NCBI RefSeq assembly: GCF_000003605.2
Contig: NW_003109104.1
Span: 20,384-62,019 of the forward strand
Reading direction: 5' to 3'
DNA from: Saccoglossus kowalevskii
Lineage: Eukaryota; Hemichordata; Enteropneusta; Harrimaniidae
DNA length: 41,636 bases
The stretch's first letter is position 1. Each line of letters begins with the position of its first letter. The notes below the pieces were generated by a model. The model did not search any database. It had not been told where the DNA came from and saw nothing but the letters and a program-made list of their open reading frames with translations. This document shows, piece after piece, positions 5,646-40,230 of this stretch. A program made the position numbers and the translations under genes.

Positions 5646-8600
5646 GTAGGGAATAACACAACCAAATATATCCCATATTTTGAAAACATGTTGTCCTTTG
5701 TGCTTCACAAATCTGACCGATATAAATTGGTTCAATGATTCTTTTGAAGATCTGCATTAACATTATATAATCCTTGTTTAACAATGTCATGGATGCATGT
5801 GATAGAATGATCTGCGTGTTATAGTTTTCTCCTCGGAGAACAATTCGTAGGTAAAACAGTAAAACAATTCGTTGGTCGCTGCTTCCGATGACATATACCT
5901 CTCCAGCTCGGTACCTTTGGTAATTTGGTAATTATCATTATTCATCTATACTTCTATTTACATTCCGTGGTAACTAGTGTCCTTGTCGACACAGCAGGCG
6001 TCTCGGATAGCTTAATATCTCGATGAAACCAGTTGAAATAAAAGTGCCATCTTCTTTGAACAAACTCGTACCAGCCTCGTACAATTTGCACACTATTTTA
6101 CCTAAGCAAGAATAACGAGCATGCAAATTATCTTTGGCTATAGCGTAATACCGTCTCTTTTTCAGTTAATTGTCATAATTTTGCGTAGCTGTCGTTCTGT
6201 ACATATTTAAAGTTCGTCCTATAACCAACGTAATAATCATACCGGTGATATACCGTCGCACTATTGCACTATTGGTGCGTTGTTAACAACCAACTAGTCG
6301 TTAGTCACTCCCCGTCAAACTACAGTAATGTCCGTGCTTCCTACAACCAATATCGCATGTTGATCCATGGTTTATACACGGCATTCACACACTCTACAAA
6401 TAATAAATCACTTCATTTAGTAATGGATTGATAATGGTGATATGTTTATTCTCTATGTGGATTACGACCGCACCATTGAATTGTCTCGATGAATTGGTGA
6501 GAGGTGTCAAGGGGTTTCAAAACATACTTTTCCTCTCTTGTGAGGGTTATAGTTACCACTTGACCAAACATAACACTTGAATACATTCTTTGGCGATTCA
6601 TTACAGATTAGTGTTATGAGAGATTATTACATGGACTAGTTTGTACATGCCCTGTACGCCTATTCCCTAAGCAAGTTTCTAAGTATAATTTTCCGGGTTT
6701 ACTGGTGAATTGGATAAGATCTTTGTACTAAACTGTCTGCGTTTTCTGGTTAATAAGGCAGTTTCCGAGCGAAGTTGTTTTCTCATGATAAACGAGCGTG
6801 CTGCTTATTCTTTACTTTTTAAACTTTACTTATGATCGGACAAGTTGAGTTGTCACTGCCAATTGTTTACACATGCATGCAACAGGTGAGCCGTGTACAT
6901 CCGGGTCTTTTTTAATTTGATCATCATCCCATTCTTCATCATCACAACAAAATCCCCTGCTCTTAGGATGTATTCAGTGAATGCTGGTGCATGCTGGACG
7001 TCAACAATAGACGGAATTCGGTATTACATTTCCACGTTTGGTGTATATCCCTGTGGCAAAATTGAATTGTACTCATGAGTTATTGGAATATTGAACTGGC
7101 AACGGAAATGTTCCTGTCTGTGAGATTTTCTTCTTTTTCTATTTAGTCTAAATTGAACACCAATGCAGATGGTGGAATGGCGAAACAAATCAATGAGAAA
7201 AAGTTTCATGTGAAGAAGAAATACTTGCTGCCTATCCATCACTACACCAGCGGACCAAACTACAATTATGAACATTTCCGAATAGCTGTATTATTTGCTT
7301 TGTACATGGATAGATCAATTGTTGAAAAGAGGTTTCACACCCACTATACGCAAAACCATAGCAGAGCTGGGTGGAAGTTCCTGAACGAGACATTTGACGT
7401 AGACGAACTGCAAAATATAGTGGATGTGACAAGTATTGATGAATTTAAACGTAACTGCAATAACACTGCAAGTCTCGTAATTACGTTTTTCTTGGACGTT
7501 GCGACTCGTCCAGATCCTGCGAAAACGTACCAACAACATGTAGAGTTATATAAAAAAGAATATGGAATCCACTCACCAGATTGGTCTAATGTAACTTTTA
7601 TTACGAATGCTAATGAAACAATAACCTCACTGGCACAAGAACAGTGCCTTGGAATTTACATGCCATCAGATTTTAAAGGTTTACAATTTCCCGAGAAACT
7701 GGCCTTAGTGCATCGAGTCGATCTTCATTTAATTCGACCAAATAGAGTACGGGCAATGGCTAACGTTGTAAAAAGAGTGGTATTTCAAGAACAGTCGTAT
7801 ATAGCGGTGCATTTTCGAACTAAGACTGAAGAAGGGTAAATATTAGCTCACAATACTATTAACTAGCGAATAATATGTGCTTCTACTATAGCCTAAGCTA
7901 ATCTTTTATGTAATGTGTGATATACTAGTTTTCTTGTTTAGTTTGCTGATTGTTCTACATGTCTTATTATATTGCTCTGCCTGTTTCTAGTCGGAAATGT
8001 CATGAAACATCGCCTGATCAATATGAGAAATGACATAATTTAATTTCCTAATAAAATTTGTTTATATTTTTACCAGTTGTCGCAACAATAAGACACACTG
8101 TGATCCACTCATGGTTGCAGGGATGGAGCGGGCAGCAATGGATTTGACTGAAGACTTGTGTACGCTGATGTCGAGAAGAAATGTATCTGCAATGTATGTG
8201 GCGCTTCCGATCTACGCAAAGGTAAATGACAACAACATTTGATGTGCCATGGTATTGTCTGATGTCATGTGCTATGGAGTTGTTTAATTCACAGCTGAAA
8301 TAAACAACACCTATTAAAAATACAAATTCGTACGAACAAAACCGCACAAACGAATACGATGCTGCCTGCCAACTAATTATTATTTTTGATTTAGATATGC
8401 TTGTATCAGGCAACTTTTTCCGACATCGCTGCTTTCTCGCCTGACTTTTGTTATTACCGTTGCGTGCATTGGGAGTGTGTGTTCGTTCTGATATTCTACC
8501 GACCATGAGGGATTTAACGCCAGTGTTTGTTTTTAACCTTGGTGGCTTAACGAAAATACACCAATATTTTAGTGGAAAGTAAACATCCTTGGCTTTTGCC

Positions 8601-18179: not shown

Positions 18180-21100
18180 CTTAAAATGAGAAAAAATGAG
18201 AATGACTGTAATACAACATATATACAGTGAAACTTATTCACTATATATTAACTTGAGGTTTGCGTTAAAGGTCGAATTAAGAGAAAAATAATTGCTGTTT
18301 TAGATTCAAATAAAGACCATAGAGAATATAGTGACACACAACAAAAGTATGTTTATTTATCGTGCGACTTCTCGACATGGGATTCGAACGTTGAACGTAC
18401 GAATTTTTTTTCCAATAAATAGGATGTTACTTTACACGCGAACATAATGTTTGAACGAAATTGATACTTAATTGAAAAAGTTACTCATATGACTTGGAGT
18501 CAGTTGTGGAGCATTGTTATTATAGTTTCAATGGTTACACGATACAAGATAGACTGTCGACAGTCGGTCGTACCTAATATTAATTTGTTATTATCAATAC
18601 ATATTGTGTATGAACGTAATGGGCGTGAATAAATTTCGAACGCCGGGACAGGAAGTATGGAGTGTCCTTAGGCACGACCGACTGTCCGGTGGTGTAATTC
18701 CCTGGTAAGATTTCTTACCAGATCCGGGTATTTTTATATGCAAATGATATTCGCGCAGATGTCTATCATTTTATTGTGTCCAATCGTGAAAAGGGTCAGG
18801 GGTCGCTGGCTACTAGGATCGCCCACGACTTACGCGAAGTGTGTTTTACCTCCATGGTTTTGACTGTACTATACGCGATCGCGACACTTTCCGCAGCAGA
18901 TTTTGATATCATGACACAAACAAATCTTGACAATTGCATTATAAAAGTGCTGAAACGTTTAGACTATCATGATATTTCTTGCAAAGAATACCAGCGAGAC
19001 AATATCGCAAACTACACAAAGGGGAGAGATGTGTTCGTCTGCGTCCCGGGGTCTGCGTGCCGTGTTGTAAAAAAAACTTGTTTCGAAACCAGGGATCCCC
19101 CACGTTCAGTTGCCATTCTCTCTCTCTCTTCTCAATAACTCTCGCTTAGTTTGTTGCAATTTCTTCCTGAAATCATCCATGTTTTTAATTTTATGCAGAG
19201 TCGACGCTCTCAGTCAACATGTATTCATAATATGAACAACCAACGCATTCAAGGGGTCATTTAGAATAAATAAATAAAAGTTAATATAATTTATTATGTG
19301 ACGTCAGCATCAACTATGAATTATTTATATCAACTAGAAACCTGAAGACGGGGACAGTCTCTCGGGACTAAAGTCCCTCGCATAAAATGGTTCGCATTTC
19401 CCATCAAACGCCTTCAGCGTTCGAATGTCTAGGAAACACAATTACATTAGGCCCGAGGACTGTCGACAGTCTAGATACAAGCATACAGTAGATTTATTCT
19501 GCCATATCGAACAAGAATAACTAAATATACAAAATAATATAGTACATAAAATAGCTGATTTGATATAGCATGTTTTGAAGTTAGATAGCTACTGTGACAC
19601 ATATTCCATCGTGTACGTGTACTTACGTGTACATATTTCTTGTTCCACTAGTGACATCATATAGTTGTCATCCTTCATAACTGCAATGGTTGGCATCGTT
19701 ACTAAATCCACTCTCGTCAAGACGTTGTCAAGCCTCTTTTGGAACAGATTTGTGTATTCCTGTGTTAACACATTTACAATACGTTAATGAATATTACAGT
19801 CAGTCAGTCTACTTTTATGAAAGTTATACAATACCAACATCCGATTCCGTTATTACAGTTATGTGCTAAAACTAAAATGCTCTTGCATATTTACCAGCTA
19901 CTAATGTTAAACCGGCCAATAAGAAACATAACATTGGGTTTAGTGTGTGTTTCACATGAAACACTGATTGGTGGTTCCCAGTCAGTGATCATGATTCGCG
20001 TGTTTGAGACTGCTTAATTGATTACAGTTTATGTTATGTATGCACATAATCCTGATAATAAATATCTAAAAAGCGCAATTGTCACTAAAATGTACGATTG
20101 TATATTTACCATTGCATAGTTGGGAAGAGCAACGTATATGGTGGATATATTTCTTTTCTTCATCAGTAAGCGAAGGTCTTTGGATACACTAATGGCTGAA
20201 CGTCTCATGGCCTCTTTCCGGGTTGTGTCACAGTTTGGCATGCCATCTCGACAACTAATGTACAGTATTAGAGATGTATTAGTATCCAAACATAACGGTA
20301 GCTCGTTACATGGAAAACGGGAGTTTCTTATTCGTTTTAGTAATTACAATCGATGCTAGATAAATGTTTAGTTATATGCTTGTCTACATGCATAGTAAAG
20401 GTATGGTGTTACCTCTATAACTCAATACAAATTTAGGTACAGGTATGTGTAAACAAAGTATTTTACAATAGTTGTTTACGTCGCATGTAAGCCTTGTAAA
20501 ACACTATATGTATTACCTCTTCTATTTTGATAACGTTTTTTGTTTCTGAAACGTTTGAAATTGTGACATAATAGTTCAACAATCTCAGTTCACTAGATTA
20601 AAACAATATATTTCAACTTTTTCACTGAGCAAGCGAGTTAAACTAAACAACAAACTAGTTGCGGTGAAAAGGTCAGCTAGACATTTCGGCAATACATTGA
20701 TATCAACTTTATTTGAAATATAATCTCACCCTCTCAACGATTAGTACGTGTAATATTATGTAATTATTTTATTCAATCACGCTAATAATAGGCAATACAT
20801 ACCCTTCCTCCGCCCTTGTCCGAAAATGTAGCGCCATGAACGGTTTTCCATGGAACACATTTCTCTGAACCAAGTCAATAGCGTCCCGTACATTCTTTGG
20901 TCTAATTAGATGTAAATCAAGTAGATTGAGAAGGTCCAACTGTTCTGGCAGTTTGTACAGAGTAAACTCTCTTGGCAGATAGATTCCCACGCACTGAATA
21001 TGGCTAACCTCTTCGAATATGTTTTTTGGATTTGCGATGATATCGACATGCGACCAGTTTAGTATATTTATTCCAAATTCTGTCTTATATAGTTGCACAT

Positions 21101-24100
21101 GTTTTTGATATGTTTCCTCACTATCTGCTCGTCCTGTAGCTGTGGTAATTACTTTGTCTATGGTTTTATTACAGTTACGTCTGAACTCGTCTATACCCGC
21201 TACACCTACCAACTCTTGTAGTTTATCTACATCAATCGTCTCATTTAGAAATTTCCATCCAATAGCATGACGCTCTTGACTATAGTGTGTATAAAACCAC
21301 TTCTCAACAATTGTCCTATTTGTATACAATGCATATAGCGCGGCCATTCTGAAATGCTCGAAATTGAAGTTTGAACCACTACCATAGTGATGAATTGGTA
21401 GCAAGTATCGCTTCTTCTTAACCGCCATCTTGGATTCCGTATTCTTGGTTATATTCAACTGTACAGATAAATCTATATTATCAATATTATTTTCATAAAT
21501 AGCACTGGGAAAGAATACGGGTCTGTCAGGGCATCCACTAATAGACACTAGTTGATTTGTGAGAAGGAAAGAAAAAAGAACGTAAGCACTATGCACCAAA
21601 TTCAAGTGTTTTGCAAAATCTGGAAATTGCCTAATTTATGTTAATTGTTTTGAACTCAAAACTCAATTCATCTATGTACGAAGTTTCATTAAAAGCTGAG
21701 CATGGTACTTGAGATATTAGTGGCAACTGAAAATTGGCTAATTGTCATGTCAGAGCGGGAAACATCTTTCTTTGACAGGAAACAATAGAGAATTATTATA
21801 CCTTATTACCATGGCAGCCAATTTGACCTGCACATTATATTACAGATAAACACATTCAATGTCTACCTGTCAACTTCCTTCGCTTATTTTGCTTTAGTAG
21901 AACCAGTATATTTCATAATGGCATATCACCAATTTGTTGTTCATGTATTAGTATGCATTTTATTCAATATCTGATAAAAATATACAATGCTGAACAATAA
22001 TATAATGTATTATTTGTGATGTAAATAAAGGTTTTGAAAATTTTCAACGATTGACCAGTTTTCCCCAAACGTTTTGTCAATCTAAGACTTGTAACTTCGA
22101 AACTCTGATTCACTCGCTGAATGCTGGGTGTTATATTTGCTTTTAATGAGAAGCTGACTGTTTATTTCACAATTTATTTTTAGGTTATTCTTTTATTCAT
22201 TTTTTTCAAATCACGCATTTTCGGTAGTCTAACGTTAATAGTTCGTGACTAAATTCTAGGTTCATTTGAAAACGATGTTAAAATTTCAAACGAATCGACT
22301 CACCCACTCCGTGGGTCAAAGTTAGTTAAATCGGTTGAAAATGAAATTGGAGAATTTTCATCAGTATTGTAACGAACGCGTTTCACTCGTCATAAATACG
22401 GTTTACATTTTACTGACAATAATGGTGATGGTATGGTGATGCTACAGAATCTAAAAAACGATGCTGAAAATAAAATTATAGCTTAACTACTATGATAATT
22501 TTCATAATCATTTATATTTTACACTGATCATAAATCATTGGTTTTATTGTTTTAATGAACATAAAGCTTTACCATGTATGGCCAGTGCTAGAATGCAATG
22601 TTGGGAAATTGTGCATGCACTCTATGAATATTGTAATTCTGTGGAGGCGGTAAAAACAGTAATGGTAATGTTCTTTCTAGGCTGCCATTGCTTACCAAAC
22701 CTAAGTCAATACCAGTCTCTATAGACACCACTGTGTTGCTAGAGCGCGGACCAGATTAGAAAATGGTCAAATGGATGTTCAATTGCGTCCACGTCTGATA
22801 AGTTTAGATCATTTTATATTCGTAGAAATAAGTTTAATATCAAAGATAACTGTGTCTTGTGGGGGAATACAGCAATTGTATCCACTGCTAGTCACAAATG
22901 GCACAACAAACCTCCAGATAGGTATTTCAGTAATAAAAGGTATAGCAAGATCTTATGTTTGGTGGCCTAAATGGATAGAGACATTGAGAATGTATTAGAA
23001 AGTTGTGAAAATTGCCAAATACATAGAATTAAACCGCGTATGGCACCACTACATTCCTGCCAATATCTAGAAAGAACTTGCACATTAATTATGCAGAACC
23101 GCTTTATTTTTTTATTGTAGCTTATTCAAAATGGTTAGAGGAAAACATCATGAATAATTCCACTTCTACACCAACTAACAGTAGATTAATTCTCCATGGT
23201 ATACTTGATATTTTAGTAATTGATAATGGTAGCCAATTCATCGGAGTTTCAATGGACTGGCCGAACGAGCAGTTCAAAGAGTAAAACAAAATGAGAAAGA
23301 GTGAGTAGTAAGATTTCTGTTCAGATATCGTAGTTCACCACAATCTGTACCTGGTGCTATTCCAGTCAGGTACATATTGTTACTTGTTAAGCCTCATTTC
23401 AAGTCAGGGAAACACAGAAGAATAATCATGGTTAAGTGTTGGTGGTAGAACGAATAGATGGTTGCCGGGTCCTGTATCATACAAGATGATAGCATTTTTA
23501 GGAGACAAGTAGATCAGATCATAAAATTTTATGTAAATGCTAGTGACCAAAATGACTGTGACGAGGGGCATACATACAGGATCAGATAATTCATTGCTCA
23601 ATAAACCTGCAATTACTTCATTCAGTGATACTGACTGAACTCCTAAAGTTTTAGTTAAGTATACACATCGTATATTAGTGTACGATTGTTTTAACGACAT
23701 CAAAGCTAGTTTGTCACAACGTGATAAGAACGTGTACAATACTACCACCCCAACATTGGCATACATACATAAATCAATTATTTGATCTACAGAGTTGGTC
23801 CATATGACTTAGGTACATTATAGTTATAAGCAGTGTCGTATCAGCGTAATAACATGTGTCAGTTCAGAATTTCATTCAGTATCCAGTCAGTGTATTGGTA
23901 TTTAAATGAGTATATCATAATGATGCTATTAGCAGCATGTAAATTCAGGCAATTTCAATCTGCAATATTTAGTTTGATTTTCACTTTTAGAAGGATCGAC
24001 GCAACTAGTGCATTATCGTGTATTAACATAACCAATGTTTTTTATAATGCAGTCAATAAAAATAGATATTCTATAATATTTTATATATCTAATTGGGTCT

Positions 24101-38929: not shown

Positions 38930-40230
38930 TAAGTCTTGTGTCAACACATTGTGTGATAATCACGATATATATCTTTTACAAGAACACTGGTTGGTAAAGG
39001 ATGACTTGGGATTTTTGTCTTCTATACACAAGGACATTTATCCATTTTGAGTTTCTGCTGTGGATACTAGCAGTGGTATTCTTATGGGGCGTCCCTACGG
39101 GGGTACTGCCATCTTGTGGTGTTAATCGCTTACAAGCATAATTATAAAGATTAATACGTATGAGGATCCGAGGCTTCTTGGTGCGAAAATAACAACTAAC
39201 AGCGATAGTAAACTCTCCTTTCTGTGTGTTTACCTCCCTACAAACTATTGTGACAATATAGACAAATTTGTGAACTACCTGGGTACGACGGCATATAACG
39301 CACCTCTTCCATGAACAATTGAGGGTGGCTCCGGTGAATCTAATACTGCGAACATGTGGGCTATGCATTTTAATACGGTTTTAAATTCTGTTAAATATAA
39401 AGTTAAAGTGCATCAATATGTTTCAGGTAATACGTTAGATACGTCCGTGGAAGAAGTCGCTCAGTTGTGCAGAGTCTTGAGCTAGAGAAATCATGTGGAG
39501 CAAGCGGTCTATCTGCTGAGCGCCTTAAATTCGCTAACCCGGTGATCTCATCACATCTGTCAATGTGTCTGTTTGCAATGCTTATACACGGAACTGTCCC
39601 ACCCAAGAAGGTTGATTGAAGTTGAACTGCTCCCAATAGCTAAGAACAAATGTGTAAATATGACCAGCAAAGATAATTATCGACCCATTGCCATAACTAC
39701 AGTTTTATCCAAAGTCTTTGAACACATTCTTCTAAACAGATGTCAGAATTATCTTAATGTTTCAGACAATCAATTCGGTTTTAAAAAGAAACACTCGACT
39801 GACTTATTTATTTTTACTCTGAAAGAAATTATTAAGCATTACAATTATTTATTATTTTTTTTATATGGACTCATTTGTCTGAAATAAATAATAATATAAT
39901 ATAATATAAAAGAAATTGTCGACTTCTATAAAATCGCAACTCGCCTGTCTTTTTGCTTGTTTCGTAGACGCAACAAAAGCGTTTGACTGGGTAAACCATT
40001 GGAAGTTATTCAGAAAAATGACAGGGAAATGCTATTATTCATTGTGCGTTGTATATTGTATTTGAACCGGGTTTAAAAATTTTTGTGTCCAGTGCACTTA
40101 TCTACGTTCTTTAGAATGACCAATGGAGTTGGACATTGAAGCATTCTTTCGTCAATGTTATTTACAATTTACACTGACAATCTCAGTACAAGGCTGCAAA
40201 AAAAAAACAGGTGTTCGATTTCATGAAGCT
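38930..40230 (+). pseudogene. LINE ORF2 fragment (endonuclease and reverse transcriptase)
   Basis: Readable motifs are L-L-Q-E-H-W-L, S-G-I-L-M-G-R-P-Y-G-G-T, M-W-A-M-H-F, N-Y-R-P-I-A-I-T-T-V-L-S-K-V-F-E, F-G-F-K-K-K-H-S-T-D and F-V-D-A-T-K-A-F-D (motif A, catalytic Asp present). The second half of the endonuclease is deleted, and the palm after motif A is heavily decayed, so the A-D-D box cannot be read. The clearest open part is 39600-39887. Confidence 0.68.

Follow-up and report, generated by a model that had tools for sequence, protein, structure and literature searches.

A transposon family with palindromic ends in Saccoglossus kowalevskii, its RecQ-like helicase remnants and probable AcademH-like parents

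Introduction

DNA transposons with terminal inverted repeats (TIRs) that carry RecQ or another helicase are a kind already described, as the accessible text on KolobokH and AcademH establishes. According to the available parts of PMC9587614, KolobokH and Kolobok-1_CCri are DNA transposons encoding RecQ, the KolobokH RecQ is encoded downstream of the transposase domain, and the Kolobok target site duplication (TSD) is the 4-bp sequence TTAA. AcademH elements, of the Academ superfamily, encode a helicase and have TSDs of 9 or 10 bp (PMC10045372, in its available portion); the lineage occurs in animals and fungi, as stated in the title of PMC7165386, and is also treated in the accessible part of PMC10799480. 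Here we describe a 924-bp element in a 41,636-nucleotide stretch of the hemichordate Saccoglossus kowalevskii (contig NW_003109104.1, positions 20,384 to 62,019; hereafter the window). The element has palindromic 16-bp TIRs and holds the beginning of a RecQ-like helicase frame. An earlier note, made from the letters of this DNA without database searches, did not recognise a TIR transposon with RecQ-like cargo as described; KolobokH and Kolobok-1_CCri (PMC9587614) and AcademH (PMC10045372), as far as the accessible text of these sources goes, precede it.

The explanation that we favor, and consider probable, is that the window element is a non-autonomous cut-and-paste copy descended from two-gene, AcademH-like parents, and that its ends anneal into scars. 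In such a parent, a RecQ-like helicase gene would read inward from the left end, and a gene for a protein with an N-terminal CxxC...CxxC motif would read inward from the right. A shared internal deletion would have removed Walker A and joined the two gene starts in the window family, whose non-autonomous copies would be moved by a trans-acting transposase that recognises the TAGACT...AGTC end. Upon excision or breakage of an element, its ends would anneal to leave TA, 14 bp and TA, an 18-bp scar between intact target copies. The observations beneath this proposal are the ends themselves, the 9-bp duplications, the RecQ start, the CxxC start, the shared junction, a second family (L072 and L108), and the convergence of RecQ with a DUF6589 gene elsewhere in the genome.

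The window family resembles AcademH in combining a helicase with TSDs of the expected length: 31 of 32 placements are 9 bp and one is 8 bp, and L072 and L108, themselves partial copies, carry a RecQ-like frame with Walker A between the shared ends. An exception is L108, with a duplication of 8 bp. By the description of TSD and helicase, transposase identity aside, the element is AcademH-like, and this lineage is probably its best filing. Kolobok-1_CCri, in the accessible text of PMC9587614, is similar in having RecQ on the complementary strand. In KolobokH, by contrast, the helicase is not placed as it is here, where RecQ begins at the left end and faces a second gene, the transposase being a matter of inference. 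The duplications of the window family are also 9 bp with no fixed sequence, which excludes KolobokH membership.

Within this one genome there are several families with RecQ starts and TAGACT...AGTC ends, and in no fewer than two, the family of the window element and that of L108, the second gene faces RecQ. This allows a comparison of copies, deletion derivatives and scars.

Results and Discussion

A multicopy family with 9-bp target duplications

Both ends of the window element are present as exact complements, and the inner 14 bp of the 16-bp end TAGACTGTCGACAGTC form a perfect palindrome, just as the earlier note had it. That copies with the same ends exist elsewhere is evident from the genome (572 Mb in 4830 contigs), where the 16-mer has 137 exact matches (59 + 78, with five double-ended places counted on both strands) and the reversed control has 2 (2 + 0). 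Among the first 100 of the 137 places, at least 11 intervals are bounded by two exact ends, 186 to 1132 bp apart, and one of these intervals, L012, has another interior. Searched at the DNA level, the full-length element yields at least 76 matches (40 of 188 candidates scored), which, the window itself aside, are 74 to 94% identical to it. Copies of the family differ by internal deletions.

Target duplications were placed among loci L001 to L085 with at most one mismatch, a threshold that excludes older copies such as L013 (two mismatches). The 32 placements, three of which are exact solo ends, comprise 15 perfect 9-mers, 16 nine-mers with one mismatch and one perfect 8-mer. The earlier note had reported a segment of 925 bp with exact 8-bp duplications. 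The exact pair, GATACAAG, is indeed there, and it forms part of a 9-bp duplication with one mismatch, GATACAAGA and GATACAAGC. The element is therefore 924 bp long. A simple independence estimate gives about 1e-6 for the chance, within the window, of an exact 8-bp direct repeat together with a 16-bp inverted repeat so spaced.

A group that we call family B (CCTCGGGCCTAATTTGTTAGTATACTAAAT) has the same 16-bp end as the window element and a different interior, and its ends are near-symmetrical in copies where both were seen. Its members L012, L065 and L085 are short, with both ends alike and interiors unrelated to the window copy; their target duplications (6/9 in L012, 7/9 in L065 and none in L085) are unclear. 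At two loci the right end and the adjoining target sequence are repeated, at bases 2113 and 2606 of L045 and at bases 76 and 398 of L020, which looks as if the end had been copied in tandem with its neighboring DNA. The target CTCTCAAGT is common to L045 and L030, which are perhaps duplicated loci.

The helicase frame and the loss of Walker A

The helicase-like frame recognised in the earlier note is present (18776-19138), and its Walker A motif, which the note called destroyed, has been deleted rather than degraded. This distinction follows from L104, because its homology to the window element ends at about 19036, and the window then continues with the other strand of a second gene. Specifically, identity between L104 and the window element is 76% across about 400 bp and extends to element base 487 (window 19036). 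Beyond this base L104 runs into KPTGSGKSLTYEV, where Walker A is intact; one internal stop interrupts the L104 frame. A search of the genome with the frame gives matches at 49 places, and all 16 readable loci of 20 lose Walker A at one place and then run past the junction (L098, L100 and L103 are not among the readable loci, and L104 was read separately).

One copy with the same ends is L072, whose left end is exact, whose right end has one mismatch, and whose TSD is a perfect 9 bp. Its frame has an intact Walker A (APTGSGKSLTYEM) and matches Pfam DEAD at 4.2e-12, above the cut-off. Among NCBIfam models its best family is recQ_fam (6.5e-12), at 45 bits, which is well under the full-length cut-off of 219.8. 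In the PDB, chain 1oyw, which we take to be E. coli RecQ, is on top (8.5e-08), and 4tmu, named RecQ, is matched as well. Walker A is thus retained in relatives of two sorts, L104 by homology to the window copy and L072 and L108 by their ends. These relatives substantiate the proposal, already made in the earlier note, of a deletion derivative of a larger transposon with a RecQ-type helicase. Judged from sequence comparison, the window frame corresponds to the N-terminus of a RecQ-like helicase and lost its Walker A in a deletion common to the family, an identity that comes from its relatives, such as L104 and L072, and not from matches of its own. Copies with the same ends, which the earlier note suggested searching for, do include intact Walker A frames of RecQ type (L072 and L108); a complete copy with a transposase did not appear.

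Two other candidates were set aside. The 376-amino-acid 'open frame' of L106 is an artefact of an assembly gap, and L118/L119, considered as an autonomous copy, has a RecQ that is degenerate and includes motifs II and III, while a second gene was not recognised in the part of the locus that was read.

A second gene and families with the same plan

Past the junction, the opposite strand of the family holds the start of another gene, of which KETTCIVCGSQIENIENRRRLFRG and YACRKCGLRASTLHKNMDEFRKKFQQ are sibling examples. The CxxC part of this gene is absent from the window copy and kept in siblings. A homologous arrangement is found in L108, a copy of 1853 bp with both ends exact, 145-bp inverted repeats that are 97% identical, and the duplication AGTGGTGT. 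Its interior holds a RecQ start from the left, with Walker A kept, and a homologous CxxC exon from the right, on opposite strands; this exon, used as a query, recovers the antisense frame of the window family. L072 and L108 together constitute family C. A single internal deletion, slightly less than 1 kb long, separates them, and the sequences to either side of it are 98% and 97% identical; the second-gene start of family C was observed in L108. From these comparisons the window family (family A) and L108 are seen to share a plan, in which RecQ reads in from the left end and a CxxC gene from the right end.

Two further RecQ-like families have related ends. Family D, with the end TAGACTTGCTTGCAGTC, includes L112, L113 and L116, with a full inverted pair in L113 and L116; family E, with the end TAGACTGGCANAGTC, has one end each in L114 and L117 and an imperfect pair in L110. 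In the D copy on contig C3744, the coordinates place the RecQ and CxxC matches face to face. The ends of the whole group fit TAGACT-N-AGTC, with one of the ends of L110 excepted, and the perfect palindrome occurs in the window's group only.

A probable parent with a helicase facing DUF6589

Searches with DEAD, Helicase_C, DUF6589 and the L072 frame, together with a reading of loci L120 and L121, reveal a helicase convergent with DUF6589 on five of nine DUF6589 contigs (C1306, C1075, C3659, C14 and C1561). For C1075 the identification as a helicase is based solely on DEAD; on C1306, C3659, C14 and C1561 there are matches to the L072 frame and Helicase_C as well. Roughly estimated, the chance of five of nine contigs being paired within 10 kb is about 4e-10. 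We infer that this convergent RecQ/DUF6589 pair represents the parent plan of the element, in which the DUF6589 protein would be the putative transposase and the CxxC exon its putative first exon. The window family is tied to DUF6589 by gene order and the RecQ gene rather than by any single intact element. DUF6589, an uncharacterised domain, is named in no paper of the literature searched, and its convergence with a helicase suggests a function for it. Close to the RecQ/DUF6589 pair, at base 6876 of the reverse complement of L120, lies a 28-bp near-palindrome, TAGACCCTCTAACAGGTTAGAGGGTCTA, that recalls the solo end of another family; its flanks have no clear duplication.

Several results weigh against this reading. 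The window frame by itself fits no helicase model: it has no Pfam match up to E 1, and its 50 RecQ-like residues have no PDB match up to E 1. A three-frame family profile gives a weak match to the L072 frame (E 0.004 among 438 sequences, with the next at 0.038), and BLASTP of the sibling frame L037 against L072 gave no match. Four DUF6589 contigs (C1796, C3977, C1804 and C1343) are without a helicase among the 50 of 167 DEAD candidates scored. The genome yielded no complete copy bounded by TAGACTGTCGACAGTC, no TAGACT...AGTC ends occur in L120 (8 kb) and L121 (7 kb), stretches that may stop short of one end or of both, and on C3659 the part read does not extend to the first exon of DUF6589.

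The incomplete frame also invites another account, which the earlier note had offered as an option, namely that a family of miniature inverted-repeat transposable elements (MITEs) captured a host RecQ fragment by chance, and that the helicase piece is irrelevant to transposon biology. The window frame has no catalytic motif and no Pfam helicase match of its own, and family B demonstrates that copies with the same ends can have unrelated interiors. Capture of a host piece is nonetheless not borne out, since separate families have this pair of gene starts, each at its usual position. Families A and C, with the same ends, both carry the RecQ start from the left, A and L108 also carry the CxxC start from the right, and to these are added the RecQ-like families D and E with their related ends and the helicase/DUF6589 convergence on five of nine contigs. 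We consider chance capture very improbable.

On anatomy alone, a Mutator-like element (MULE) of foldback type remains a rival to an Academ relative. Muta1 and other MULEs have TSDs of 8 to 9 bp, long TIRs and, in some, a palindromic terminal motif (available text of PMC5225508), and the duplications of the window family are of that length. However, the genes within these ends are those for RecQ and a CxxC protein, and no MULE transposase was matched by Pfam in the few frames scanned, with no genome-wide search made with a MULE model. A MULE origin is therefore unlikely in our judgment, and a two-gene, AcademH-like parent is the reading that we retain.

Solo 18-bp palindromes between target duplications

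The 18-bp palindrome TAGACTGTYGACAGTCTA stands alone between perfect 9-bp duplications at four of 12 inspected places, and between duplications that agree at 7/9 positions at two more. The 18-mer TAGACTGTCGACAGTCTA occurs exactly at five places and with one mismatch at 18 more, compared to none and one, respectively, for the reversed control. Flanks were read for 12 of these 23 places (the five exact ones and seven with one mismatch). Perfect duplications surround the exact solos L021 (CTGCTCGCC), L023 (GGACTTACC) and L024 (TGGTTTGCC), as well as L126 (GTAGTAGCT), which has one core mismatch; the 7/9 duplications surround L123 and L124. Per place, the chance of a perfect 9-bp flank is about 7e-6, and that of 7/9 or better is about 2e-3. 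Among the rejected candidates, two that had at first been read as solos, L022 and L025, proved to be the ends of longer copies; no duplication surrounds L125 or L127, and L128 and L129 look like element ends. Eight of the other 11 places are copy ends in L001, L012 (twice), L014, L017, L043, L067 and L083; C1625, C2261:2295409 and C2824 were left out of the flank reading.

These solos have a simple geometric explanation. Since the end is self-complementary over 14 bp, two inverted ends are also 14-bp direct repeats, and annealing between them yields exactly the 18-bp product. The palindromic ends thus seem to anneal upon loss of the element. A comparable outcome has been described for KolobokP, in which solo terminal direct repeats (LTDRs) of about 450 or 660 bp are left alone between TSDs (accessible part of PMC9587614). 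The remnant here differs in being 18 bp and in deriving from an inverted end that is its own direct repeat. In the literature searched, no paper on palindromic transposon ends in amphioxus was found, and for palindromic ends with footprints Muta1 was the one lead taken up. The combination of a perfect palindromic end with 18-bp scars that keep both target copies may be the part of this system that is new.

What drives the annealing can be framed in more than one way. The solos might be ordinary deletions, formed by host single-strand annealing or microhomology joining of the 14-bp palindromes with no role for a transposase. The product, with both 9-bp duplications kept, would be identical to that of staggered excision, and the solos range in age from fresh (no changes) to old (1/18 plus 2/9 positions changed). 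Set against this possibility, three exact solos stand beside at least 11 two-exact-end intervals (in the 100 places listed), in which the repeats lie about 200 to 1100 bp apart, and 14-bp repeats at such distances are short for spontaneous annealing. We give ordinary deletion an even chance.

The solos could also have arisen separately, by insertion of an 18-bp mini-element or of joined ends rather than as what is left of longer elements, given that perfect 9-bp duplications are what any insertion would leave. All three exact solos (L021, L023 and L024) lie in targets ending in CC, a property of one of 29 other placements, and this unexplained bias would also suit separate insertion events. 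As a rule for solo targets it is broken by L126, the fourth perfect solo, and an element of 18 bp has no subterminal sites. Independent insertion strikes us as improbable.

Finally, the ends might serve as self-complementary sticky ends. P transposase makes 5' cuts 17 bp inside the repeats and leaves long single-stranded tails (available text of PMC7776569). This is a mechanistic analogy only, a model for staggered excision: no P-type transposase was present in the frames scanned, and none was searched for genome-wide. A P-like cut about 16 nucleotides inside would leave identical palindromic single-stranded tails on the donor break and on the excised element. The donor would anneal to the 18-bp scar with both target copies intact, the element would circularise likewise, and the RecQ helicase would open or clear the palindromes. 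We regard this version as tentative and rather doubtful. If a transposase does make the 18-bp scars, they would constitute a record of past excisions and point to the cut sites of the enzyme.

Layout of the element and neighboring features

The coordinates of the features of the window element are collected in Table 1, including the subterminal inverted copy that the earlier note had correctly described.

Table 1. Features of the transposon copy, in window coordinates
Feature	Position	Strand	Remarks
Whole element, 924 bp	18550..19473	+	probable non-autonomous internal-deletion derivative
Left TSD copy, 9 bp	18541..18549		GATACAAGA; 8/9 identical to right copy
Right TSD copy, 9 bp	19474..19482		GATACAAGC
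Left TIR, 16 bp	18550..18565	+	TAGACTGTCGACAGTC
Right TIR, 16 bp	19458..19473	-	GACTGTCGACAGTCTA; exact complement of left TIR
Subterminal inverted copy of left end	18672..18688		GCACGACCGACTGTCCG; starts at element base 123; 14/17 positions agree
Subterminal half-site GACAGTC close to right end	19353..19359		
RecQ-like helicase frame, N-terminal part	18899..19036	+	DFDIMTQTNLD...GRDVF; stops before Walker A
Internal deletion junction region	19037..19048		16/16 readable family loci lose Walker A here
Second, convergent gene, remnant of 5' part	19049..19189	-	KNMDDFRKKLQQTKRELL; MATERGGSLVSK

Short half-sites lie near both ends, in inverted orientation and about 114 to 131 bp from them, in the window element (GACTGTC at base 131 and GACAGTC at base 804 of 924 bp) and in L108 (GACTGTT at base 128 and AACAGTC at base 1719 of 1853 bp). 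In L108 the distance is about 128 bp at each end. The half-sites may be second binding sites, an idea that is opposed by their absence from the shortest copies (about 200 bp). When the ends are folded as single strands, the hairpin of the window end is matched by 8 of 200 shuffles and that of the family E end by 14 of 200, better than most. Hairpin ends as a trait of the whole group are ruled out by the family D end, which 71 of 200 shuffles match.

The frames 7153-7839 (+) and 20769-21605 (-), one to each side of the element and oppositely oriented, are 53% identical across 215 residues. Neither has a Pfam match above cut-off, and by their similarity they appear to be a duplicated gene of unassigned family. 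A reverse transcriptase fragment is present at 39573-39884 (+), where RVT_1 is matched at E 7e-5, under the curated cut-off.
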